Of a stretch of 64,000 bases of DNA, positions 12,110 through 28,143 are shown one piece after another. Positions within the stretch are counted from its first letter, which is position 1. Each line of letters starts with the position of its first letter. This DNA comes from Stackebrandtia nassauensis DSM 44728. Its GTDB lineage: Bacteria; Actinomycetota; Actinomycetes; Mycobacteriales; Micromonosporaceae. The translations under genes and the position numbers were made by a program. The stretch is taken from assembly GCF_000024545.1 (NCBI RefSeq), contig NC_013947.1, positions 4,216,001 to 4,280,000 on the forward strand. The letters run 5' to 3'. Under the pieces are notes generated by a model, which was given only the letters and a program-made list of their open reading frames with translations, was not told the DNA's origin and searched no databases.

Positions 12110-13018
12110 CTACAGACCGAACAGCCGCGCGGCGTTGTCGTGACACACCGCCCGCAACCACTCCTCCCCCAACCCGGTGCACTCCAACGCCGCCAACGCG
12201 TGCGCGTACGAGTAGGGGATGTTCGGAAAGTCCGTGCCCAACAGCACCCGGTCCCCCAGATCCCCCAGCCGTGGCAGCGCCCGGTCCGGAAACGGCAGCA
12301 TCGCCTCGGTGAACCTGGTGAACGCCATCGTGGTGTCCAACATGACCCGCTCATACCGCTCGGCGAGCCCCAGGAAGTCCTCGTACTCCGGCATCCCGAG
12401 ATGTGCGACCACCAACGGCAACCGGGGATGCCGCTCCAATAGCGCGGCCATCGGCTCGGGTCCGGTGTGCGCGCCGGGAATCGGCCCGGATCCACAATGG
12501 GTCACCACCGGAATCCCGGCGTCGGCCAGCAGTCCCCACACCTTGTCCAACAGCGGGGAGTTGGGGTCGAAGCCGCCGACCTGGAGGTGGCATTTGAAGA
12601 CCCGCGCGCCCTGGTCGACGGCGCGGGTGACGTCGTCGATCGCGCCGGGTTCGTCGAAGAATGTCGCCGTGTGCAGGCAATCGGGTGTGCGGGCGGCGAA
12701 GTCGGCGGCCCAGTCGTTGAGCCAGCGCGCCATGCCGGGCTTGTGCGGGTACAGCATGGAGGTGAACGCGCGGACGCCGAAACCGCGCAACAGTCGCAGC
12801 AGTCTCTCTTCCTCGTGGCGGTAGGTGATCGGCCACGCCCGACCCATCACCGGTCCCGCCAGATCGAAGTAGGCCCAGACCTTCGCCAGCACCCGTCGCG
12901 GCATGAAGTGGGTGTGGACGTCGATGATGGACTCGATGCCGATGCGTTCGCGGAACGCGGCGACCGCCGCCGAGTCGTCGTGATCGATGGTTGCCGATGG
13001 CTCGGCCCGCGAGGTCAT
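12110..13018 (-). other. Amidohydrolase-2 domain, possibly also translated separately
   Basis: The last 302 residues of the fused frame form a complete TIM-barrel amidohydrolase: IIDVHTHFMP (HxH metal site), VTHCGSG, VVAHLGMPEYE and LLGTDFPN. Stand-alone proteins of this size are common in actinobacteria. An ATG at 13018 begins the domain, but no convincing ribosome site precedes it. It may once have been an independent gene into which the AIPR frame now reads. Confidence 0.6.
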
Positions 13019-14764
13019 GGCGTCCAGCGTGCCACCGGTGTGAGTGGCGCGCGCTGGCCGGGGTAATCGGCGCGGCTGTTGCCGGGCGAGGGCCACTACT
13101 GTTTTGCCGAAGGTGATCGACGCGGCCGCGGTCTTCGGGTCGGGTGAGGACGACTGGGTCAGCGCTTTGTCCAGGACGGATTGGATGTCGAGGGCGAGCA
13201 GTTCCCAGCCGCCGTCCGACCAGAGCACCTCGTCGACGGGGTCCAGCCGTTTGCCCTTGGCTTTGTGGTCGCCGACGAGCGGCCGGACGCCGTACAGCAC
13301 GCCCAGCACGGCGATCGCCTGGTAGCCGAGCGATCGGTAGCGTTTGTGGATGCGTCTGGTGTCGGCCAGCCAGTCCCAGCGGTACAGTGCCGCACCGGCG
13401 GTGTAGAACTCGCGCTCGGAGGCGTTGCCGAAGTGTTCGTCGAACGCGGTGTCCAGATCCCGGTGACCGCTGGACGGTGCGGGTCGGCCGAACATCGCGA
13501 CATGGGCGCGCAGTTGCGGGTTCATGCCGATGACGCCGCGGCGCAGGTCGTTGGCGCCTTTGCCGGGGCGCCTGGCGAAGTAGAGCGGCCGATTCTCGTC
13601 GTATTGATGGCGATAGTGGACTTCCAGGCGCCGCATCAGCTGGTTCCGGTTGGTGAAGTACACCTTGGGGATCTCGGTCTGCCGGTTGGTCGCGGTGACG
13701 ATCTCGTTGATGACCTCGTCGTCGTCGCATTCGATGATCTGCACCTTCACGGCGACGCCGTCGAGCCGATCGGATTCCTCGGCGAGCACGTAGCAGGTCT
13801 GGCAGCCGTTGACGACCTGGAAGTCGCGGATGACCACTTGGGAGTCCTGCCAGGCTCGCAGTGATCGTGCCACGATCGTGATGCCGTTGTTGAGGACGGC
13901 GAAACGGCGGCGGGTCGCCTCGTCGCGCAGGGTTTCGCGGATTTCGTCGTTAACGGGTGCGGCGGGCTGGTATTCGCGGATGTTCTCGCTGAACAGGTTG
14001 GGCTTCGGGTCGCCGGAGGCATCCGCTATGGCCTGCACGAGTTCGGCGGCCGGGACCAGCCCCTGCCGGGCCTGGGTGATGCCGGGGTCAACGGGCAGGG
14101 CGTAGTGGCCGGTGAAGGTCAGTTTCGCTTTGGAGGACCACTGTGCTCGTTCGTAGCGGCGGCTGAGTTCGGTACGGCCGAGGAACTCGAACCTCACCTC
14201 ACCGATGATCCCGTTGTGGGCCAAAGCTTGCGCGGCGCGGGATGCTTCGCGGCGCAGCTCGTCGTTGGCGCCCAGCGAGGTGCTGGCGTAGGCGATCTCG
14301 AGGCGCACGCCGCGGCTGTTGAGGCGGTCTCGGTGTTTCTTGATCCGGCGCAGGCACTCTCGCAGCGGTTCGACGTCGGCGGCGTGGTCGAGCGGCTCCT
14401 CGGTCCGCAGAATGTACTCGACGCGAACCCGCAGATCGGCGATGGTCGCCCGGCTCATGCTGGCCGAGGTCTTGGCCTGGACGACGACGATCGTCGGTGA
14501 GATGTCGGTGGTGGCCAGAAGACAGCGTTCCACGTCGTCGGGGGCGTTGAACAGGTTTTCGTTGATCACCACGGCGTAGCCGTCGATACCGCCGTCCTCG
14601 CTGCCGCCGATGCGGTAGTCGACAGCTTCGAAACTGTCGAAGGTGTGGTCACTCAGTACACAGTGGGTGGCGAACACCTCGAACTTGTCCGGGTCTCTCC
14701 ACGACGACAGTCCCTTCTCGGCGCAGAACTCGGTCATCAGCTGTTGAACCACCGGGTTCATCAT
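12110..14764 (-). CDS. PD-(D/E)XK-AIPR defence protein fused in frame to an amidohydrolase
   Basis: The open frame is unbroken for 884 residues. Residues about 1-130 look like a restriction-endonuclease fold: D61 in GGIDGY and Q96-x-K98 in VVVQAKTS give a D...QxK active site. Residues about 250-560 carry the AIPR (abortive infection/phage resistance) hallmarks LNNGITI, VVNGCQT and TNRQTEIPK. After a low-complexity bridge (ARQQPRRLPRPARATHTGG) the frame enters an amidohydrolase-2 domain at M583. The gene overlaps the HerA-like gene by 4 bp (ATGA), so it is the last gene of that operon. The likely role is DNA cleavage in phage defence. No stop separates the two parts; whether a true fusion, a recent stop loss or a sequence error cannot be decided here. 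Confidence 0.8.
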   Translation of the reverse strand: MMNPVVQQLMTEFCAEKGLSSWRDPDKFEVFATHCVLSDHTFDSFEAVDYRIGGSEDGGIDGYAVVINENLFNAPDDVERCLLATTDISPTIVVVQAKTSASMSRATIADLRVRVEYILRTEEPLDHAADVEPLRECLRRIKKHRDRLNSRGVRLEIAYASTSLGANDELRREASRAAQALAHNGIIGEVRFEFLGRTELSRRYERAQWSSKAKLTFTGHYALPVDPGITQARQGLVPAAELVQAIADASGDPKPNLFSENIREYQPAAPVNDEIRETLRDEATRRRFAVLNNGITIVARSLRAWQDSQVVIRDFQVVNGCQTCYVLAEESDRLDGVAVKVQIIECDDDEVINEIVTATNRQTEIPKVYFTNRNQLMRRLEVHYRHQYDENRPLYFARRPGKGANDLRRGVIGMNPQLRAHVAMFGRPAPSSGHRDLDTAFDEHFGNASEREFYTAGAALYRWDWLADTRRIHKRYRSLGYQAIAVLGVLYGVRPLVGDHKAKGKRLDPVDEVLWSDGGWELLALDIQSVLDKALTQSSSPDPKTAAASITFGKTVVALARQQPRRLPRPARATHTGGTLDAMTSRAEPSATIDHDDSAAVAAFRERIGIESIIDVHTHFMPRRVLAKVWAYFDLAGPVMGRAWPITYRHEEERLLRLLRGFGVRAFTSMLYPHKPGMARWLNDWAADFAARTPDCLHTATFFDEPGAIDDVTRAVDQGARVFKCHLQVGGFDPNSPLLDKVWGLLADAGIPVVTHCGSGPIPGAHTGPEPMAALLERHPRLPLVVAHLGMPEYEDFLGLAERYERVMLDTTMAFTRFTEAMLPFPDRALPRLGDLGDRVLLGTDFPNIPYSYAHALAALECTGLGEEWLRAVCHDNAARLFGL

Positions 14765-17700
14765 GGTTGTCGCCGCTTCGATCGAGCTCGTTCGGAGATC
14801 TCGCCTTCCTCCAGTGGTGGCCCGTGGTGGCTCAGGCACATGGGGACCGTCGTTTGGGTGAGCGGGTGGCCCTCCAGTGAGACATAGAACCGCCCGGCGG
14901 TCAGCTGGGAGATCGGCGGCGGTTCGTCGCCTCGGGCCCTGGCCATGTCGTTGACGGCGCCGACGTGCGGGGGAACCACCACGCGGCCGTAGACGTGGGT
15001 GGCGGCGTTGCCGGTGATACGACTGTCGATCCCGCGCGGTGCCTGGGTGGCGTAGACGAGGCCGAGCCCGTATTTGCGGGCCTGTGAGGCGAGATTGCGG
15101 GTGCTCTCGGTGCACGGGGTGTTTCGTCCGGACGGGATGAACGTCTGCGCCTCATCCATGATGAACAGTCCACTGAGTGGTTTGTCGCGAGCCGGGTGGC
15201 GCTTGATCCAGGTGAACAGCGCCATCTGGAGCCGGTTGACGAACGCGGGACGGTTCTCGTCAGGGATTCCGGCGAGGTTGATCACCGAGACCCGGGCCCG
15301 GTAACCGTTCGCGGGAGCCAGCAGCCGATCGGGGTCGAAGTGGACGCCTTCGCCGTCGAACAGCGGATCGTTGGAGCGCGCGTACGCCAACGCCGAGGCC
15401 ACGTAGGTGGCGTGCCGGTCGGCTGACGGCAGCGCGGCCAGCACCTCATCGGACGGTTCGCGAAGCAGTTCGATGAGCTGCCCCAGGTCACCGCCGCCGC
15501 GACGCGCGAACTCCCGCAGCGTCACCCGCAGCACTGCGCGACGGCCGTCCGCCTGGTGGTTCTCGGCGTCGATCCGAGCGCGGGGAGCCAGCGACGCGAC
15601 GGCGGTCTCGATGGCCAGCCGTAGGTCGTCCGGGTCGTCGCGCACGGCGGTGAAGTCAGGGAAGGGTTGCAGGGTCAAGGGGTTGCCGCGGCTGACTCCT
15701 GGAGTCCACACCACGACGTCGGTGTTCTTGAGATAGTCCAGACTGCGTTCTTCGTCGCCGGGCCACCAGCCGTCCGGGTTGGACGGCCAGGCGTCGCCGA
15801 GACGGGCCAGGTCGTTGTTAGGGTCCAGGACGATGGTACTGACGCCACGAAGAGCGCACTCCTCGATGATGCGTCGCAACAGGACGGTCTTGCCTGATCC
15901 GGAGGCGGCGAACATGGCGACGTGTTTGCGCAGCGCCGGTAGCTCGATGGTGACCGGTTCGCCTCGGGGGTTGAGACCCAGTGGGATCACGGTTTCGGCG
16001 ACCATGGGCGGCGCGTCGGTCAGCTTCGGTGTCGCCGGTGGGGTCGCGTCTGGTGTCTTAGGCGAGGAATCCAGTGGGGTGCCGGATTCGGGTTTGACGA
16101 GTTTGAGCAGTGCCCTGCCCAGCTCGGTTCCGCTCACGGGTCGGGTGTCGCGCAGCCATTGGCGCACTTCGTCGGTGTCGCTGGTGGTGGTGAGCTGGAC
16201 GGCGCGCAGGGTTCGCAGGTCGTCGTCGCTGATCTCGGTGACGACCCCGTTCGAAGCCGCCAGTTCGTTGGTCACGGACTTGATGCGGGTGGTCGGTTTC
16301 CAGGGGTTCGTTCGCACGATGAACAGGTGAACGGAGTCCGCGGTCTCGGCCGCAGCGACCGCCCTGGCGTTGTCGACGCGTTGACCGACGTGCGCGGCGC
16401 TGATGGTGTTGATGCCGCGTATGAGGATCTTGGCTTTCGCCGCGGTGGTGATCTCGCAGTGGATGGAGGCCTTCTCGGCGCCGCGACACGCGTCGCGAAC
16501 CTGGGTGCTCTCACCGAGACCGGCCTCCGTGGCCAGGGCCCGTGCGGCGCCGGTCAGCACGTCGGCGAGATCGCGTTCGGCGGAGGTCTCCTTGAGACCG
16601 TCCACATGCAGTGTTCGCCGGTGGGAGAGATACCGTGTCTGCGTTTCCGACGCCTCGGGATCCTCCGGTTTGTCAGCCGTCCCGGTACCGTCCGGGGGTC
16701 GGCGGCGATTCTGAAAGACCGTCACCGGCACCAGTTCACCGGCAGCCACACACTCGCGGACGTGTTCACCGACGAGTTGGATCAGTTGCCGGGGTCGATG
16801 CTGGGCCGCTTCGTCGAACGCGGCCGGGGGAATCGGCCAGGTGTCATACGGCGGCGCGAATCCCAGTCGCTGAAACTGCGGCGCCAGGAAGACCGCCGCG
16901 AGGCGGCGGGCGGTGTCCCCGTTGGGGATCGGATTCAGCCGCAAAGCGCCGTGGAACCGGTCCAGGGCCGACCGGGCCGCGCGGGAGCGAATCGTCTCCC
17001 AGGTGTGCTCCAGGCAGGAGATGAGCGTGATGCTTCGGGTCAGTTTCTCGCGGATCGTCATCAACGCGGCGGCCAGATCGGCAGACTCCCCGTCCGATGC
17101 CGCCGACTCCGTAGACTGCGCGGAGCGGACCACCAGTTCGTCGATCTGGTCCACGACGAACAGGGACGGCCCGGTCTTGGCCAGCAGCTGCGACAGGTGC
17201 CGCACCACCTCGTCGGGTGAGGCGGGCCGGACCGGCCGCAGGTCCCAGTTGTGCCGCGAGTCCATTTCGTCGTCGCTGTCGTGCAGGTAGGCCCAGCCGG
17301 CGGCGTTGGCGTCGTCATCGTCGATCGCCAGCAGCGCGAGGGCCAGGGCGACGTTTCGCAGTCCCCGGCTCGGGTGGCGGGAACGCACCCCGTCGGTGAA
17401 GGCGCGCAGGTACGAGCGCGACTGTTCGGTGTCGACGCGCTTTCGGCCGCTGACGACCGCCCGCGCCGGTTCGTCGAGACCCACGTCCTTGGCCAGCCGT
17501 TCCACCGCCAACGCCAGTTGGGTGGTCACGGTGGGCGGCAGCTGGTGCGGGTCCATGGGCTCACACAGGTCCCGGACCATCGAGGCAAGCACCCGTGTCC
17601 ACAAGGTTTCGGGAGCGCCGTCGGGTTGGATGTTGAAATAGTAGCCACCGATACCGGCGATGAACTTGCGCGCCCACCAGACGATGTGGCTCTTTCCCGA

Positions 17701-17907
17701 ACCAAACTCGCCGTGGACGACCAGCCCGGGCGGTGAGTCGATCATTCCGGGGTGAAGGGCCGTGATCTCGTGCCGGAGCCGGTCGTAGACCTGCTGGTTC
17801 AGGTCCGGCAGATGCGGCAACCGCCCGCCCCACAGTGTCTTCTCGGTCGGAGCCGCGTCGAAGCGCAGTGACTCCAATATCGTTCGTTCCCGTGCGTCCA
17901 TTGTCAT
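14761..17907 (-). CDS. Double P-loop ATPase: AAA-type plus HerA-like translocase
   Basis: A 1048-residue protein with two nucleotide-binding modules. The N-terminal one has Walker A GEFGSGKS (66-73) and Walker B LFVVDQIDE (about 240). The C-terminal one has AASGSGKT (about 667-674), then TIVLDPNNDLARLG, the Walker B GLFIMDEAQTF (about 920) and an ASQARKYGLGLVYATQ sensor region, as in HerA/FtsK-type DNA translocases. The middle part has no recognised domain. Such ATPases pump or remodel DNA and partner with nucleases. ATGA overlaps join it to the winged-helix gene upstream and the AIPR gene downstream, which indicates fixed stoichiometry. Confidence 0.85.
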   Translation of the reverse strand: MTMDARERTILESLRFDAAPTEKTLWGGRLPHLPDLNQQVYDRLRHEITALHPGMIDSPPGLVVHGEFGSGKSHIVWWARKFIAGIGGYYFNIQPDGAPETLWTRVLASMVRDLCEPMDPHQLPPTVTTQLALAVERLAKDVGLDEPARAVVSGRKRVDTEQSRSYLRAFTDGVRSRHPSRGLRNVALALALLAIDDDDANAAGWAYLHDSDDEMDSRHNWDLRPVRPASPDEVVRHLSQLLAKTGPSLFVVDQIDELVVRSAQSTESAASDGESADLAAALMTIREKLTRSITLISCLEHTWETIRSRAARSALDRFHGALRLNPIPNGDTARRLAAVFLAPQFQRLGFAPPYDTWPIPPAAFDEAAQHRPRQLIQLVGEHVRECVAAGELVPVTVFQNRRRPPDGTGTADKPEDPEASETQTRYLSHRRTLHVDGLKETSAERDLADVLTGAARALATEAGLGESTQVRDACRGAEKASIHCEITTAAKAKILIRGINTISAAHVGQRVDNARAVAAAETADSVHLFIVRTNPWKPTTRIKSVTNELAASNGVVTEISDDDLRTLRAVQLTTTSDTDEVRQWLRDTRPVSGTELGRALLKLVKPESGTPLDSSPKTPDATPPATPKLTDAPPMVAETVIPLGLNPRGEPVTIELPALRKHVAMFAASGSGKTVLLRRIIEECALRGVSTIVLDPNNDLARLGDAWPSNPDGWWPGDEERSLDYLKNTDVVVWTPGVSRGNPLTLQPFPDFTAVRDDPDDLRLAIETAVASLAPRARIDAENHQADGRRAVLRVTLREFARRGGGDLGQLIELLREPSDEVLAALPSADRHATYVASALAYARSNDPLFDGEGVHFDPDRLLAPANGYRARVSVINLAGIPDENRPAFVNRLQMALFTWIKRHPARDKPLSGLFIMDEAQTFIPSGRNTPCTESTRNLASQARKYGLGLVYATQAPRGIDSRITGNAATHVYGRVVVPPHVGAVNDMARARGDEPPPISQLTAGRFYVSLEGHPLTQTTVPMCLSHHGPPLEEGEISERARSKRRQP

Positions 17908-18806
17908 CCCACCGCGTACAGATGCTTCTCGTCACCCACGATGTGCAGCGCCGCCTCGCGGTCCCGGTGGGTCAGCGTCTTCTGGTTCACCTCGGCGATC
18001 AGCTTGATCCGCCCGTCCCGGAACAACGCCGACAGCACCTCGTCCAGCTCCTCGCGCTCCACATCAGACATGTGTTCGCGCAACCGCGTCAGACTCACCC
18101 AACCCCCGGGCTCGTAGACCAGCTCGTCGTACGCGTCGATGATCCGCGCGCCGACCGTCTCGGCCGCCACCTTCCGTGGCGCGGCGGCCTGCTTCGTGGA
18201 CATGTCCACATACGACTCGGCGTACATGTCGGTCAGGCCCAGCCCGCGGGTCCGCAGCCCGGCCAACAGCAGGCAGAAGTGGTGGTGGAGCAGCTTCAGC
18301 AGCGGCGGGTCGTCGGCTTCGGCGGGACGTGAGAGCTCCGCTTCCGCTACGGCCCAGCCCTTCTCGGTCAGCTCGAACCGCAGCGGGCCTTCGACCACGA
18401 CGACCAGGCCCTTGTCGGCCAGCGTATGGCGGAGGCCCTCGCCGATGGCGATGCCCAGGGTTCGTTTCACCTCGGCGTAGGACACCTGCAACGACGGCGA
18501 CAGCAAGGCGAACAACGCTTTGCGCTCCTCGGCGCCGAGCCGCTGGTCCGGGGCGTGTCTCGACGGCTGTTCGGCGCCGTCGAGCTCGTCGCTGGCCATG
18601 TCCATGCCGTCGGCGGTCAGCGTGAACGTACTGGCCCGGCCTGCCTTGCCGACGACGAGGTAGCCGGGTTCGGTCAGCTTCTTCTGCTGGGCCGAACTGA
18701 ACGATCGGCCGGAACGGGCGCGGATCTCGTTGGCCGACAACGTCTCCCCGCCGCTGAGCGCGCGGAGGATGTCGATGAGTGCCGGGGAGTTTCGAAACTT
18801 GGACAC
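17904..18806 (-). CDS. Winged-helix protein, first gene of the AIPR/HerA operon
   Basis: A 300-residue soluble protein. Residues 1-65 form a winged helix-turn-helix (ALIDILRALSGGETLSANEIRARSGRSFSSAQQKKLTEPGYL), and a second similar module may lie around residues 95-150 (VSYAEVKRTLGIAIGEGLRHTLADKGLV). The C-terminal 120 residues are helical and unassigned. It could be the operon repressor, the DNA-binding sensor of the complex, or both. GTG at 18806 is chosen as start (AAAGGG 10 bases upstream); the frame is open further to 18923, but that would cross the predicted promoter. Confidence 0.65.
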   Translation of the reverse strand: MSKFRNSPALIDILRALSGGETLSANEIRARSGRSFSSAQQKKLTEPGYLVVGKAGRASTFTLTADGMDMASDELDGAEQPSRHAPDQRLGAEERKALFALLSPSLQVSYAEVKRTLGIAIGEGLRHTLADKGLVVVVEGPLRFELTEKGWAVAEAELSRPAEADDPPLLKLLHHHFCLLLAGLRTRGLGLTDMYAESYVDMSTKQAAAPRKVAAETVGARIIDAYDELVYEPGGWVSLTRLREHMSDVEREELDEVLSALFRDGRIKLIAEVNQKTLTHRDREAALHIVGDEKHLYAVG

Positions 18807-18861
18807 GACTCGGGGACCCTTTCGGACACTGGAACGGCGAGCGGCATGTCTTGGGGGGCAA

Positions 18862-18907
18862 CAGTGACTAGTCCACTCATCGTATTCAACACATGCACAT
18901 ATCGCAA
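18862..18907 (-). promoter_or_regulatory. Predicted promoter of the defence-like operon
   Basis: On the minus strand TTGCGA (18907-18902), a 17-base spacer and TACGAT (18884-18879). CAGTGACT (18862-18869) overlaps the predicted start region. The direct repeat AGTGACTA recurs at 18931-18938, and the inverted copy AGTCACTG is at 18951-18958, so a regulator could bind on both sides of the promoter. Confidence 0.55.
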
Positions 18908-19026
18908 CAGGCACATTAATCACCCGGGCGAGTGACTACACAGGGCCACAAGTCACTGTCAATTCGGCCACCAGTCGAAGCATCCTGATGACCATCCCCG
19001 GAGCCCGCATCATGAAGGGATGTCAT

Positions 19027-19686
19027 ATGGCTTGGCGGCTCGCGCGCAGCCTTGAGAACCTGCGACGCGAAATCAACCAAATCGCTCCACATAGGTCGAA
19101 GGTTTCGGATGGGACCATCGGTGATGGGGCGCATCAGTCCGGTCCGTCCGACCACAACCCGAACTCGTCCGGGGTGGTGTGCGCGTTCGACGCGACCCAT
19201 GATCCCGATAGTGGCGCCGACATGCGCAAGATCGCGGAACACTTGCGTACCAAGAGACATCGGGCGATCAAGTACGTGATCTTCAACCGGCGCATCGCTT
19301 CGGCGGCGTCGGGGTGGCGTTGGACCGGTTACTTCGGGAAGAACCCGCACACCCAGCACATGCACGTTTCGGTCGGGCGTGGGCCCGACGGCAGATCTAC
19401 TGGACCGTATGACGATCCCGGCCCGTGGGGGTTGGGCACAACTCGAGGAGACGACGTGATTGGACTGCGCAAGGGCGACTCAGGGGAACGGGTGAAGGGA
19501 TTGCAGGCCGTGCTGGAGCGGGCCGGTTTCAAGGTCACTGTGGATGGTGATTATGGACCCAAGACCGCGGCGGCGCTGTTGGCGTGCCGCAAGTCGATGG
19601 GTTCGACCGCCGACGACGGCAACTCGGTCACCGGGTACGCGTACGCGCAGTTGCTGACGGCGCTGGCTCGTAAGCAGGACGACTGA
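19027..19686 (+). CDS. Endolysin-like protein: peptidase M15-type domain plus peptidoglycan-binding domain
   Basis: A 219-residue protein. Residues about 15-125 contain SDHNPNSSGVVCAFDATHDP and HTQHMHVSVG, the H...D...H zinc set of actinophage-type M15 peptidases. After a Gly/Pro linker, residues 150-210 hold a peptidoglycan-binding-1 domain (GLRKGDSGERVKGLQAVLERAGF). It probably cleaves wall peptides. No signal peptide, as in phage endolysins, which depend on a holin. GAAGGGA lies 6 bases before the ATG at 19027; the upstream ATGs at 18988 and 19012 lack a ribosome site. Confidence 0.8.
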   Translation: MAWRLARSLENLRREINQIAPHRSKVSDGTIGDGAHQSGPSDHNPNSSGVVCAFDATHDPDSGADMRKIAEHLRTKRHRAIKYVIFNRRIASAASGWRWTGYFGKNPHTQHMHVSVGRGPDGRSTGPYDDPGPWGLGTTRGDDVIGLRKGDSGERVKGLQAVLERAGFKVTVDGDYGPKTAAALLACRKSMGSTADDGNSVTGYAYAQLLTALARKQDD

Positions 19687-23747: not shown

Positions 23748-25193
23748 CTACTTCTCCGGTTCCTGCTGCGCCTTGGCCGCCGCCTGGATGCGTGCGAGCT
23801 TGGCCGATTCGACGGCCAGCAGCCGCTCGCGTTCGGCCGGGGTGGCCTCGGCGAGCAGCCGCGACAGCGTGATCGGGTTGAGCAGCGGTTCGTCGGCTTC
23901 GGCCGTCGTTGGCTCGGTCTCGGGTTCCTCGGCGGGCGGGTCGATCCGCGACGGGTACACCGCCGATCCCTCGGCCGGGCGCACCCACGGGGTGCGGCCC
24001 CACTCGGGAGTGGCTGGGCGCGTGGGGGTCGCGGGCGGCGCGGGGGCCGCGGGTTCGACGGCCGCCACGATGGGGGCCCGTGTCCACTGCGGAGTCGGCG
24101 GGGCGGCCGGGGCCGGGGGTTTCGGCGTCACCGACGGCACGGTGGCCGCGCGCACCAGGGGATTGCGGGTCCACTGGTAGGTCCGCGCCGCCTCGGTTGC
24201 CACCACCGTCGCGCGCGCCTGGGGTGTCGCGCGCCCCGCCGTGACCAGCGGCGAGGTCAGCGTCCGGGGCGGCACCGGGGGCCGGACGGCGATGGGAGGC
24301 CGCCCCAACACCCCCGGCCGCGGTCCGGTCACCGTCGTGACCGGCCGTACCACCGCGGGCCGGGGGTGTGCGGGAATCGTCGAGGCGACGCCGGTGCGAG
24401 GCACGGCGCGCGGCGTCGCCGACGGAGGCGCCACCATCGTGGTGCGGGGCATGGCCGCTGGTGGGTTCCGGACGATTCCCAGTCCGGGCGTGCCGACAAG
24501 GCTTCGGGGTGTCATGGGTGGCGGGGCGACGATGGGACGCGGCGGGATGACCGTCATCGGCGGCAGCGCCCCGGGCACCGGCGGAGTGGCGACGACAGTG
24601 GACGGTGGCGCGGCGACCGGTGTGGTCGGCGGCGGCGCAGACGGCAGGCTGGGCGAGCCCTGAAGCTGCGGCTGCGCGTTGTCGGGCAGCACGCCCCGGA
24701 ACTCCTGCGGCGGCGCGAGATACCCGTTGTTGTACTGGTGATAGGTGTTGTTGGCCTCGAGCAGCCGCGCCCGCGACTTCTCGCCGTACTCCTGGTCCAG
24801 CTTCTGGATCTTTGGCAGCGCCTGCTCCGGCGGCTGCTGCTCGAAGGCGGCCCGCTTGCCGCGGTATTCGTCGGCCAGCTGCTTGGAGTCGTCCTTGAGC
24901 CGACGCATGGTCTCGGCGACGACCGGCAGCGCGTCGGTGTGCGCCTGTAGCACCGTGCCCATCTCGTTGACGTCGTCGTGGACGATCTGGGCTTCCTGCG
25001 CGAACCGGGCCGCCACCGCGCCGTTCCAGTGCTGACGCAGTTCGGTGAAGTGGGAGCCGAAGCTGTTCTTGGCGTACTCGTAGGCGCTCCACAGGTGTGC
25101 CGCCGCGCGGGCGTTGCGGTCCATGGCGTCGGGGTCGTCGGCCGCGCCGATGGCCTCGACGTCCTCCACCGTCAGTTTGTCGAACGCGGTCAT
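23748..25193 (-). CDS. WXG100-like/proline-rich protein, probable type VII secretion partner
   Basis: A 481-residue protein. Residues about 1-150 are helical with a W-centred turn (ELRQHWNGAVAARF), like the helical hairpin of ESX/WXG100 or PPE proteins. Residues 180-410 are Pro/Ala/Thr/Val-rich, with repeated short motifs such as WTRNPLVRA, WTRAPIVAA and WGRTPWVRP. The C-terminal segment is a charged helix. Last gene of a four-gene operon, joined to the preceding gene by an ATGA overlap. Export by a type VII system is inferred from the N-terminal fold; no secretion ATPase is in the window. Confidence 0.65.
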   Translation of the reverse strand: MTAFDKLTVEDVEAIGAADDPDAMDRNARAAAHLWSAYEYAKNSFGSHFTELRQHWNGAVAARFAQEAQIVHDDVNEMGTVLQAHTDALPVVAETMRRLKDDSKQLADEYRGKRAAFEQQPPEQALPKIQKLDQEYGEKSRARLLEANNTYHQYNNGYLAPPQEFRGVLPDNAQPQLQGSPSLPSAPPPTTPVAAPPSTVVATPPVPGALPPMTVIPPRPIVAPPPMTPRSLVGTPGLGIVRNPPAAMPRTTMVAPPSATPRAVPRTGVASTIPAHPRPAVVRPVTTVTGPRPGVLGRPPIAVRPPVPPRTLTSPLVTAGRATPQARATVVATEAARTYQWTRNPLVRAATVPSVTPKPPAPAAPPTPQWTRAPIVAAVEPAAPAPPATPTRPATPEWGRTPWVRPAEGSAVYPSRIDPPAEEPETEPTTAEADEPLLNPITLSRLLAEATPAERERLLAVESAKLARIQAAAKAQQEPEK

Positions 25194-25639
25194 GACTGTT
25201 CGTTCTCCCTCACGGCGGCCTCCAATATGGCCACCTGTTCGGCCCGGTGCTGTTCGACGGCGCTGCGCGCCATCGACGCGAACTCGCCGAACCGGGCCAC
25301 GTCCATGGCGTTCTGTTCGTCGATGGTCTGGTGTTCGCTGGCGATGGCCTCGGCCAGTTCGGCCATGAACCGCAGGCTCTCGATGAGGCGGCCCAGGTGT
25401 TCGGCGACGCCGCGCAGGTTCAGTTCGATCCCGGCGCCGATCCACTGTGCCGCCGGGTTGAGTTCGTGGTTGCCCAGCGCCTGGTTGGGTCGGCTGCCGC
25501 CCAGGCTCGCCCAGATCTCGTTGTACACCGAGGTGTGCGCCGGTTGCAGCACGAAGTCGATGTCGTACCGCAGCTGCGCGGCGAAGGTCTGTAGGTCGGT
25601 GACGTTGAGGTTGACCGGTTCGGGGTGGATGTCCTGCAT
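25190..25639 (-). CDS. Small helical protein of the WXG100-like operon
   Basis: A 149-residue protein. LNVTDLQTFAAQLRYDIDFVLQPAHTSVYNEI and the later amphipathic helices suggest an ESX-type helical hairpin with an extended coil. No signal peptide. The start at 25639 (MQDIHPEPV) is 13 bp after the previous gene; the ORF overlaps the following gene by 4 bp. It may act as a dimer partner for the proline-rich protein. Not recognised as a named family. Confidence 0.6.
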   Translation of the reverse strand: MQDIHPEPVNLNVTDLQTFAAQLRYDIDFVLQPAHTSVYNEIWASLGGSRPNQALGNHELNPAAQWIGAGIELNLRGVAEHLGRLIESLRFMAELAEAIASEHQTIDEQNAMDVARFGEFASMARSAVEQHRAEQVAILEAAVRENEQS

Positions 25640-25652
25640 GGTCGGTGCCCTC

Positions 25653-27767
25653 CTAGTCGTTCTCCACCAGTTGCCGCGCGGATCCGTAGGTCTGGAAGAA
25701 CTCGGCCGAAACGCTCGCGGCCGCACCGGCCGGGTCTTCGTGGCCGAGCCGCGTCAGCATGTGTTCCACAGTGGCTTGTACTTGGTAGTCGTGGCTGCGA
25801 CGGTTGTTCTCGTTGATCTCCTCGACCTCGCCCTCGGCGGCCGAGGACGCCTCGGCGAGGTTGTCCTCCATCGCCGGGCCCAGGACGAGTTCGTTGACGC
25901 CGGTCGATATCGGTCCGGCGGCCGGGTGCGGGATGAATCCCCCGGCGGTCACGCCTTTGCTCAGCGCGTCGAGGAAACCGTTGCGGTTCTCGGCGGCTTC
26001 GAGGTGTTCGTCGTTGACGATCTCGGTCCAGCCCTGGTCCATGACACCCATGACGGTCCCGTGTCCCTGCGCCAGGTGGCCGAACGCGACCTGATCGGAG
26101 TTCTCCGAGGCCGCCAGCGCCGGTTCGACGGTCCGTTCCAGCACGGCGAGGCTGCCGCCCATGGTGGTGGCGTAGGCGTCGGGGTCGCGCGAGATCGCGG
26201 CCAGGAACTGGTTCAGGCTCGCGTCGTCGCGTCCGGCGAAGGCGTTGACCGGGTTTCCGGCGGCATCCACCGAGATGGTCGGCGGCACCATGGATCCGTC
26301 GCCGTCGTCGGCGTAGGTGCGGTGGATGTCCTCCATGTAGTCGGCCGCCACGACCCCCAGGTGCGGGGTCACCGGCGACAGGTCGCCGTCGGGCGCGAAC
26401 TCGCCGGGGTTGTCGGCGACGTATTCCACGACGCTGTTGGCGACCTCGGCCATCCGGGGCGAGTGCTCGACCCGCACGCCGTCGGGGGTCTGCGAGGACA
26501 GTCCGGTGGCGCCGGATTCGATGACGCCGCCGAGCACCGCGTCGTCGAGCAGTTCGGGATAGTTGCCGTCGGCGGCGATGTCCAGCAGCGCGGTCACGTT
26601 GTCGTCGGCGGGTTCCAGCTCGTCGCCGCCACCGTCGACATAGGGCATGTCGCGGTAGGCGTCGGAACCGGTCAGCAGCGACGTGGCGGCGGCCGGGTTG
26701 CGTTCCACAGCCGACAGTGCCGAGGTCAGCGGGCTGTTCTCGCCGGGATCGGGGTACGGGACGCCGATGTCGTCGCGCACGCCCTCCAGCCGGATCAGGT
26801 GTTCGGCGACCGGGACGATGAAGTCCTCGTGGTAGTCGCCGTGTTCCAGAAGTGGTGCGGCGGAGAGGTAACCGGTGGCGGCGCCCTCGGTCATGAACTC
26901 CCCCACCCATTCGGTGTCGACCCGGGGCTGGTTGTCGGTGTTGGTGGCGGTGGCGAGGGTTTCGCCGAGGTTGGCGAGGATCTCGTCGTCGAGTTCGGCG
27001 TCGTCGCCTTCGGTGTCGCTCATCAGGACCTCGGACTGGATGAGCAGTTCGGCCGGTCCCAGTCCGGACATGAGCCGTTCGGCGAACACCGGGTTGCCGG
27101 TGTTGCCGTCCAGCAGCGAGTTGAGTTCCCGCAGCGCGTCTGGCGACAGCGGCAGGTTGTCGGAGCGGAACAGTTCCACCACCCGGTCGGCGTCGGCGCG
27201 GGTCTGCGCCAGGGCCTCCAGGTCGAGGGCCTGGCCGTTGAAGGTGTTGTCGGCGCCGTTGTCGGTCTCGGACGCCAGCGACAGTGCCTCGGCGATCTCC
27301 TCGTCGGCGGTCTGGGCGTCGTCGATCGCGGAGTCGACCTGGCCTTGCAGGTTGCTGATGTGGAAGGCCCACAACGCTTCCACGAGTCCGCCGCCGGCCG
27401 CCGGGTCGAGTTCGACCTTGCCGCCGTCGGTGATGCGCAGTTCCGCGATCGCGTCGACCTGGGCGATCGCGTCGGTCAACGCGGTCTTGGCGGCGCCGAA
27501 CCGTTCCACGCCGGTGGACAGAATGTCGCGCACGGCGGCGGCCTCGGTGGCCCCGGCCTCGATGAGCGCGTGCAGTTCGCCGCTGCGGATACCGGCCTGT
27601 TCGGCGGCGGCCCCGGCCCAGTCGTCGCTGTCCATCGCGGCGTGGACGTCGGCGGAGTACAGCGCCACCGAGTCGGTCATGCTGCCGGTGACGGCGTTCC
27701 ACGCGTCGACCCGGTTGCGCAGCTCGGTCAGGTCGAGGTCGCGCAGCGCCTGGAAATCAACCGCCAT
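25653..27767 (-). CDS. Large acidic helical protein, DUF6571-like
   Basis: A 704-residue, very acidic protein. It starts MAVDFQALRDLDLTELRNRVDAWNAVTGS, resembling WXG100-containing large proteins (DUF6571 type) of actinomycetes, with long alanine-rich helices and the recurrent SPRMAEVANSVVEYVADNPGEF pattern. No catalytic motif recognised. It overlaps the preceding small gene by 11 bp, so the two are translated together. It is probably a type VII secretion substrate or surface protein; that is inference from the N-terminal segment and its neighbours. Confidence 0.65.
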   Translation of the reverse strand: MAVDFQALRDLDLTELRNRVDAWNAVTGSMTDSVALYSADVHAAMDSDDWAGAAAEQAGIRSGELHALIEAGATEAAAVRDILSTGVERFGAAKTALTDAIAQVDAIAELRITDGGKVELDPAAGGGLVEALWAFHISNLQGQVDSAIDDAQTADEEIAEALSLASETDNGADNTFNGQALDLEALAQTRADADRVVELFRSDNLPLSPDALRELNSLLDGNTGNPVFAERLMSGLGPAELLIQSEVLMSDTEGDDAELDDEILANLGETLATATNTDNQPRVDTEWVGEFMTEGAATGYLSAAPLLEHGDYHEDFIVPVAEHLIRLEGVRDDIGVPYPDPGENSPLTSALSAVERNPAAATSLLTGSDAYRDMPYVDGGGDELEPADDNVTALLDIAADGNYPELLDDAVLGGVIESGATGLSSQTPDGVRVEHSPRMAEVANSVVEYVADNPGEFAPDGDLSPVTPHLGVVAADYMEDIHRTYADDGDGSMVPPTISVDAAGNPVNAFAGRDDASLNQFLAAISRDPDAYATTMGGSLAVLERTVEPALAASENSDQVAFGHLAQGHGTVMGVMDQGWTEIVNDEHLEAAENRNGFLDALSKGVTAGGFIPHPAAGPISTGVNELVLGPAMEDNLAEASSAAEGEVEEINENNRRSHDYQVQATVEHMLTRLGHEDPAGAAASVSAEFFQTYGSARQLVEND

Positions 27768-28143
27768 CGGGCGGCCCCACGGGTGGACGGTCGTCGGTGT
27801 ACGGCTGCGGGCGGGTCCACGGCGGCCCGTCGGCCACGACCGGGCTGCCCGCCGGGTATACGAACTCGGCGTTGTCGGCGTCGGTGGTTGCCAGTGTGGA
27901 AGCCGTGGCGCGCAGGGCTTCGGCGAAGTACTCCACCGAGTCCCGGCAGGCGGCCGACTTGGAGAGCCAGCGTGCCCACACGTCACCGACGACATCGGCG
28001 GTGGCAAATCCGTCCATACCGCTGGCCGACGCGACCGCGCCGCCGTCCGACAGCGTCTGGGTGGTGCCGTCCACCAGACTGGCCGCCTCCTCGGCGGAAC
28101 CGGCCATCGTGTTAACGGTATCGGCGTTGATTTGTATGGTCAT
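27757..28143 (-). CDS. WXG100-like small protein, first gene of operon
   Basis: A 128-residue protein, MTIQINADTVNTMAGSAEEAASLVDGTTQTLS, followed by a second helix with WARWLSKSAACRDSVEYFAEAL. This is the two-helix layout of ESX-type substrates, with a Pro-rich tail. GGAGTG lies 6 bases before the ATG. It opens the minus-strand operon and is divergent from the SARP regulator at 28281, which may control it. Confidence 0.65.
   Translation of the reverse strand: MTIQINADTVNTMAGSAEEAASLVDGTTQTLSDGGAVASASGMDGFATADVVGDVWARWLSKSAACRDSVEYFAEALRATASTLATTDADNAEFVYPAGSPVVADGPPWTRPQPYTDDRPPVGPPDGG

Follow-up and report, generated by a model that had tools for sequence, protein, structure and literature searches.

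Is the operon at positions 12110-18806 of the window, a 64,000-nucleotide stretch of the Stackebrandtia nassauensis DSM 44728 genome, a defence system, and has such a system been described? Three genes lie here on the minus strand. Gene 1 (18806-17904) starts with GTG and encodes an apparently multi-winged-helix protein of 300 residues. Gene 2 (17907-14761) encodes an ATPase of 1048 residues with an AAA module, a restriction endonuclease (REase)-like segment, and a HerA module. The open reading frame (ORF) of gene 3 (14764-12110) encodes 884 residues and combines an AIPR/AbiU protein with an Amidohydro_2 domain. As the ORF listing shows, ATGA overlaps join gene 1 to gene 2 (17904-17907) and gene 2 to gene 3 (14761-14764). 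Thus, the coordinates bear out the layout given in a sequence-only reading of this DNA, which had proposed an undescribed anti-phage operon. The one visible promoter that it had reported was not recovered, as a sigma-70 scan of positions 18700-19200 gave 0 sites; this null result is little informative because the host is a high-GC actinomycete. I found that the gene content is conserved among relatives, that its parts are inherited together, and that the partner of the first two genes is exchanged.

Partners of the winged-helix and HerA genes

Is the set of three genes the natural unit? Among 394 genomes of the class, 55 have a relative of the gene 2 product (HerA) at E ≤ 1e-10, and among 200 of the family, 121 have one at E ≤ 1e-30; at these limits, none was found in the other 339 and 79 genomes, respectively. 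In a phylum sample, the HerA profile matched 2 of 198 genomes at a strict 1e-60, the genome of the window being one of them. I compared 81 loci, consisting of the window and 40 neighbourhoods each from the class and family searches. The 80 fetched loci are a non-random sample, since best matches were favoured. Partners were typed by their resemblance to a handful of query proteins; the family searches were made on single examples. The winged-helix gene precedes the HerA gene, with a gap within 30 nucleotides in 74 of the 78 measured loci and of exactly -4 in 44. Thus, the proposed three-gene set does recur, but the natural unit is the winged-helix-HerA pair, and AIPR is one of several partners.

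An AIPR gene follows HerA in 11 of the 81 loci (the window, L135, L136, L137, L140, L141, L152, L153, L156, L159, and L166), and the L141 protein also matches the PADLOC AbiU model. In 39 loci, a DUF559-type protein is encoded before the winged helix; it resembles that of L064 (DUF559, 1.7e-10), Pfam having been run on two of the 39. Four of these partners (L050, L055, L061, and L062) have an N-terminal TIR domain (TIR_2, 5.5e-34 in L055). A PDC-M02B-type protein like that of L071 (PDC-M02B, 9.5e-141) takes the same place in five loci, and a DUF4365-type gene lies ahead of it in L048, L051, L066, and L071. A protein of 700-755 residues precedes the winged helix in L042, L151, L165, and L170. 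Its sequence reads as helix-turn-helix (HTH)/NTPase-like; the L170 representative has no PADLOC match and one weak TPR match. In L157, the preceding gene encodes M55B (4.3e-88). The AIPR, DUF559, and M02B types are mutually exclusive, as none of the 81 loci has two of them.

Some of these loci have further unusual features. The HerA relatives of L068 and L070 are 1652 and 1614 residues long, with a long additional sequence between the AAA and HerA halves, perhaps a built-in effector. L043 and L161 share a divergent cassette neighbour of 1342-1343 residues (57% identity, with WD40 repeats seen in that of L161), and L142 and L143 share one of 221 residues (60% identical; Abi_2/AbiD-like shown for L142). 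In L147, the third gene downstream of a DUF559-type cassette encodes Cas3g (1.4e-262) in a type I-G-like CRISPR operon; by gene sizes, L150, L154, and L160 resemble this arrangement.

Is AIPR inherited together with the pair? A wider search with a 10-row alignment (the window and nine others) against genome contigs gave 47 AIPR loci, a set that leans to HerA-linked loci because the query words derived from HerA-linked members. HerA lies directly upstream in 30 of the 47, and the winged-helix gene is present in 28 of these 30; in the remaining two (L175 and L206), the contig starts inside HerA. The gap between HerA and AIPR is -4 to 36 nucleotides in 28 of 29 measured loci, while the 697 nucleotides of L179 reflect the early end of the HerA frame called there. 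In the family, AIPR (E ≤ 1e-60) occurs in 29 of 200 genomes and, by comparison of positions, adjoins HerA in at least 21 (the HerA places of G405, G488, and G553 were listed in part). Distance matrices from 26 loci gave correlations of r = 0.972 for HerA and AIPR, 0.889 for HerA and the winged helix, and 0.875 for the winged helix and AIPR (0 of 2000 permutations as high), values that include a contribution of common species history. The expected co-occurrence of the three genes was thus observed.

A HerA tree of 79 rows was made by a quick method with an arbitrary root; its mixed "other" label covers 19 rows. One side of 17 rows (support 94) contains every one of the 11 AIPR rows, together with five unlabelled rows and one M55B row. 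AIPR was probably not gained many times, because two changes suffice to separate it from the labelled upstream partners on this tree; all seven labels, "other" included, need 16. The long branch of L172, which joins the clade of the window, is possibly misplaced. As a separate observation, in L194 (6689-9960) the AIPR gene follows two genes that by eye resemble McrB and McrC, so AIPR may also partner McrBC.

Domains of the three proteins

The two P-loops and the Walker B motif FIMDEAQTF attributed to gene 2 were confirmed: across 74 full-length sequences, that of the window among them, 96-100% agree on a single letter at each G, K, and S/T position of the P-loops and at the D and E positions of Walker B. 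The AAA module (16738-17907, minus strand; residues ~1-390) was delimited by Pfam, conservation, and a structure model. It contains GEFGSGKS (66-73), D253, Q254, and D256; the P-loop and the DQ.D motif are conserved, and the module is AAA-like in the model. The HerA/FtsK module (14764-15990, minus strand; residues ~640-1048) has SGSGKT (669-674) and DEAQ (918-921), with a helical insert at residues ~784-846 in the model. The Pfam matches are AAA_16 (8.4e-10) and DUF87 (2.8e-9; 37.8 bits against a cut-off of 23.2). The model, made from 24 sequences, has a predicted local distance difference test (pLDDT) score of 79.7 and a predicted template modelling (pTM) score of 0.45. In it, the AAA module is followed by an alpha/beta segment (residues ~421-560), three helices reaching residue 604, a low-confidence linker, and the HerA module. 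The segment 421-560 (16228-16647, minus strand) is REase-like in its order of helices and strands. In the column table, it has no conserved D/ExK or other catalytic set, while R495 (in a numbering two below that of the 1048-residue product) is invariant. This segment is probably inactive.

The best Foldseek match of the model is the HerA of a HerA-NurA complex (1.8e-9); an SIR2/HerA antiphage complex and TdpAB were also matched. Together with the DUF87 score, this match places gene 2 among the HerA/FtsK pumping ATPases. With PADLOC, gene 2 gave weak matches to mad8 (3.4e-21, 74.1 bits) and to generic HerA, and the HerA relatives checked likewise matched nothing but these, and weakly. No NCBIfam equivalog scored above its cut-off: HerA_antiphage and HerA_antiphage_2 gave 16.6 bits against 800 and 17.8 against 850, so that gene 2 is not assigned to SIR2-HerA or DUF4297-HerA, and MzaE gave 20.5 against 1050, which leaves it outside MZA.

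The AIPR/AbiU part of gene 3 (13019-14764, minus strand), defined by Pfam, PADLOC, and a model, covers the 582 codons before the amidohydrolase start. It matches Pfam AIPR (PF10592; 2.2e-31, 110.1 bits against a cut-off of 25, profile positions 1-159 of 308) and PADLOC AbiU (1.1e-78, 263.8 bits, positions 2-471 of 537). The D...QxK core and the AIPR motifs noticed in the sequence-only reading are all present. Thus, gene 3 is a member of AbiU/AIPR by score and by motifs. The motifs LNNGITI, VVNGCQT, and TNRQT lie in the AIPR core (13565-14092, minus strand; residues ~225-400). The N-terminal part (14165-14764, minus strand; residues ~1-200) carries E29, D57, D61, and Q96, identical in 32 of 32 aligned AIPR sequences, and K98, identical in 31. 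In a model from the 32 sequences (561 residues, pLDDT 87.1, pTM 0.64), this part has an alpha/beta order of the PD-(D/E)XK type, as assigned by eye. Foldseek against a viral library matched a viral AIPR protein best (2.5e-13), with DNA-sulfur-modification proteins among the non-significant matches. As far as the available part of the article goes, DndB was connected with AIPR by Makarova et al. (2012; PMC3506569), who predicted that AIPR proteins start with a HEPN domain. Unlike that prediction, the present model has no HEPN domain at the N-terminus. If the model is true, the HEPN prediction would be revised for this branch of AIPR.

Gene 1 had been credited with a winged helix. Weak Pfam matches to HTH_27 and HTH_20 lie below the cut-off, and an alignment of 21 sequences, judged by eye, has two conserved segments resembling a winged helix-turn-helix (wHTH) and an additional N-terminal segment in Stackebrandtia. 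A wHTH is thus probable, and gene 1 seems to hold several rather than one. None of the PADLOC 2.0 models matched any of six winged-helix proteins checked, gene 1 included, and gene 1 as the sole query against the genome contigs recovered no relative.

The division of 12110-18806 into three genes holds, but a whole Amidohydro_2 domain (12110-13018, minus strand; 2.2e-40, profile positions 1-289 of 289), in frame with AIPR, had been overlooked in gene 3. Is this a genuine fusion with a second effector? In its favour, no stop codon interrupts positions 14764-12110, and the AIPR core and the full amidohydrolase each match their family. However, nine complete and 30 HerA-linked AIPR relatives all end at 565-586 residues; some HerA-less members reach greater lengths, up to 775 residues as called. 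An amidohydrolase query had no match in 55 AIPR loci, the joint thus being found only in the window among the fetched loci. The nearest amidohydrolase relative (in G404, 75% identical) lies apart from AIPR with different neighbours, and AIPR was in none of six amidohydrolase neighbourhoods inspected (22 other genomes have a match). A fusion of this kind is therefore highly improbable. The amidohydrolase is most likely an adjacent metabolic gene that was joined through loss of the AIPR stop codon and is not a functional part; the joint may also be a sequence artefact.

Neighbouring genes and mobility

Does the cassette move? In three Stackebrandtia relatives, the cassette alone matches the window and the flanks differ (two of the three contigs are short, at 12.0 and 7.7 kb). 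HerA had three matches among plasmid records and none among phages. A plasmid record of Tsukamurella tyrosinosolvens (NZ_LR134464.1, L222) has a DUF559 - hypothetical - DUF87 cassette, which sits with a VapB/PIN pair within a run of ribosomal-protein genes. Repeats, tRNA, and the GC profile of the window gave no readable element boundary.

Neighbour enrichment was assessed with 150 genes around 15 AIPR loci and 94 control genes from six loci. pPIWI-RE, HEC-05, PDC-S01, and JetD are listed for the test genes but not for the controls. The expected enrichment for defence genes is not claimed, because the best 25 of 60 families were compared with the best 25 of 33 and because broad models lead among the matches listed. 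PADLOC pPIWI-RE models match three of the 150 genes. In L185, L186, L190, L191, and L203 (five of 28 loci), genes for proteins of 865-887 and 1071-1104 residues immediately precede the winged-helix gene on its strand. The pPIWI-RE matches are most likely the pre-cassette gene in L185, L186, and L203, and a joint pPIWI-RE/HerA/AIPR operon is possible.

Elsewhere in the window, four genes on the minus strand at 23748-28143 encode 481, 149, 704, and 128 residues, none with a useful PADLOC match. The 481- and 704-residue proteins have no Pfam match at 1e-5 and look by eye like substrates of WXG100/ESX-type secretion.

Possible function and comparison with known systems

What might the cassette do? 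In the available part of their article, Rakesh, Aravind, and Krishnan (2024; PMC10853773) predicted "HerA/FtsK capture systems", which consist of an Orc/CDC6 ATPase, an inactive REase, HerA/FtsK, a wHTH, and an active REase. A BREX paper (2026; PMC12839542), again as far as its available part goes, has the same theme of HerA and Orc/CDC6 with wHTH and nucleases. The present cassette is probably an anti-invader system of this kind, likeliest an anti-phage or anti-plasmid one that targets DNA. Defence of some kind, counting the abortive reading discussed below, is very likely. This reading rests on the co-inheritance, the tight spacing, the mutually exclusive partners, and the patchy presence. 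It also rests on partner families known from defence (AbiU, DUF559, TIR_2, and the PADLOC candidates M02A/M02B and M55B), and on the cassette-only match in Stackebrandtia, the plasmid record, and Cas3g near L147. It is further favoured by the Foldseek relatives, by the conserved nuclease residues, and by the domain order of gene 2, which as far as the model shows is that of PMC10853773. The winged-helix protein and the AAA module would recognise invading DNA or intermediates of replication or entry. The HerA module would form a ring and pump the invader DNA, handing it to the partner nuclease or switching the partner on. AIPR would then cut DNA, terminating the infection or the cell. Relatives would retain this sensor-pump core and swap the partner for a DUF559-type protein, TIR-DUF559, the DUF4365/M02B pair, or the HTH/NTPase-like protein.

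Several observations weigh against this reading. HerA is absent from 17 of the 47 AIPR loci, five of which (L199, L208, L213, L220, and L221) are no more than 2.2 kb away from the end of their contig. It was found near none of the eight non-window AIPR loci of the class that were fetched of the 16 found, and AIPR was in none of the 40 HerA loci from the class search. In the family, AIPR lies apart from HerA in five of 29 genomes (G419, G453, G565, G577, and G590). A presence in 60% of the family would also agree with a broader cellular role. Against the PDB, Foldseek gave no significant match for the AIPR model, with ParB-N domains among the weak ones. The most frequent PADLOC matches of neighbour genes are to two broad models (mad3, six, and mad8, four, of the 150 genes), and PD-T4-6 and mad6 match control genes too. 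Ten neighbours in the window, scanned with Pfam, are ordinary genes, including glutaminase, NT5C, MarR, peptidoglycan-binding, RibD_C, NUDIX, and HrpB. A defence island around the cassette was thus rejected, and the cassette stands alone.

Could the cassette be an abortive-infection switch? The winged-helix protein and HerA would sense infection, and AIPR would attack host DNA or RNA, and not DNA captured from the invader, so that growth stops. TIR domains, known from NAD-depleting effectors, are fused to the DUF559-type partner in four relatives, which fits such a switch. What does not fit is that the most frequent type of partner (39 of 81 loci) has DUF559, a domain with an REase-like fold. 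AIPR/AbiU is named after abortive infection, and the available part of PMC3506569 puts AIPR among toxin-bearing abortive-infection proteins. However, the HEPN RNase predicted there stands against the PD-(D/E)XK-like model with its conserved E/D/QxK residues, which points to DNA. I regard the switch as possible but somewhat doubtful. A cellular machine for DNA repair or end resection that resembles HerA-NurA, NurA being replaced by AIPR or DUF559, would agree with the best Foldseek match of gene 2 and with HerA in 121 of 200 family genomes. It is very unlikely, as HerA was not found in 79 of these 200 or in 339 of 394 class genomes at the limits used, the partners are exchanged, some with TIR, and the flanks are not common within the genus.

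If the capture-type defence system is real, the HerA found in 121 of 200 sampled family genomes would stand at the centre of a defence system with exchangeable effectors, and no name for such a system was found. With several natural partners on one core, it could also be tested directly whether HerA-type pumps activate any paired nuclease or NADase. A bolder proposal, which I consider rather unlikely, makes the winged-helix and AAA-REase-HerA pair a general actinomycete "socket" that senses and pumps invader DNA and drives interchangeable killers (a DUF559 nuclease, a TIR-nuclease, or AIPR). Some genomes would be wired to an upstream pPIWI-RE (Argonaute-like) operon, with possible guided targeting, and the AIPR-type core would be a ParB/DndB-like nucleotide-gated clamp that restrains the nuclease until HerA loads the nuclease onto DNA.

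Has the system been described? MADS membership, suggested by mad8, was rejected: two large proteins elsewhere in the window are likewise matched by mad8 and mad3, and no mad model matches genes 1 and 3. SIR2-HerA and DUF4297-HerA are known as two-gene systems without a winged-helix gene. They share with the cassette a HerA ATPase and an effector (Foldseek matches 8wld and 8zir), but the antiphage HerA chains in the PDB have 571-696 residues and lack the AAA front half of gene 2. In five loci, the same core is immediately preceded by an M02B-type gene (PADLOC match in L071). PDC-M02, which consists of M02A with DUF4365 and M02B, differs from the window cassette in the partner. Compared with AbiU/AIPR proteins in general, gene 3 is inherited along with the winged-helix and HerA genes, and its N-terminus is modelled as PD-(D/E)XK-like and not as the HEPN of the available part of PMC3506569.

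The closest likeness is to the HerA/FtsK capture systems as described in the available part of PMC10853773. A HerA with a helical insert is in common; an AAA+ ATPase, an REase-like segment between the AAA module and a helical, winged-helix-like end, a separate wHTH protein, and a separate nuclease appear to be so too. The active REases described there belong to two families, one of them in AbiJ; here AIPR is the putative nuclease. The words AIPR, DUF559, DUF4365, and AbiU are absent from its main text. The exchange of partners around one core is a feature of the present cassette, unlike the capture systems as described there. Among the matches listed from openly licensed literature (titles and abstract starts, preprints aside), no description of the AIPR version or of the partner swapping was found; a later name may exist, because PADLOC-DB 2.0 dates from 2023. 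Thus, the operon called undescribed fits a class predicted in PMC10853773, and its gene 3 is modelled as AbiU by PADLOC, while the three-gene set itself is undescribed in the literature found. Taken together, these comparisons suggest that the class of system is already known, and that the AIPR version and the swapping of partners are new among the literature found.

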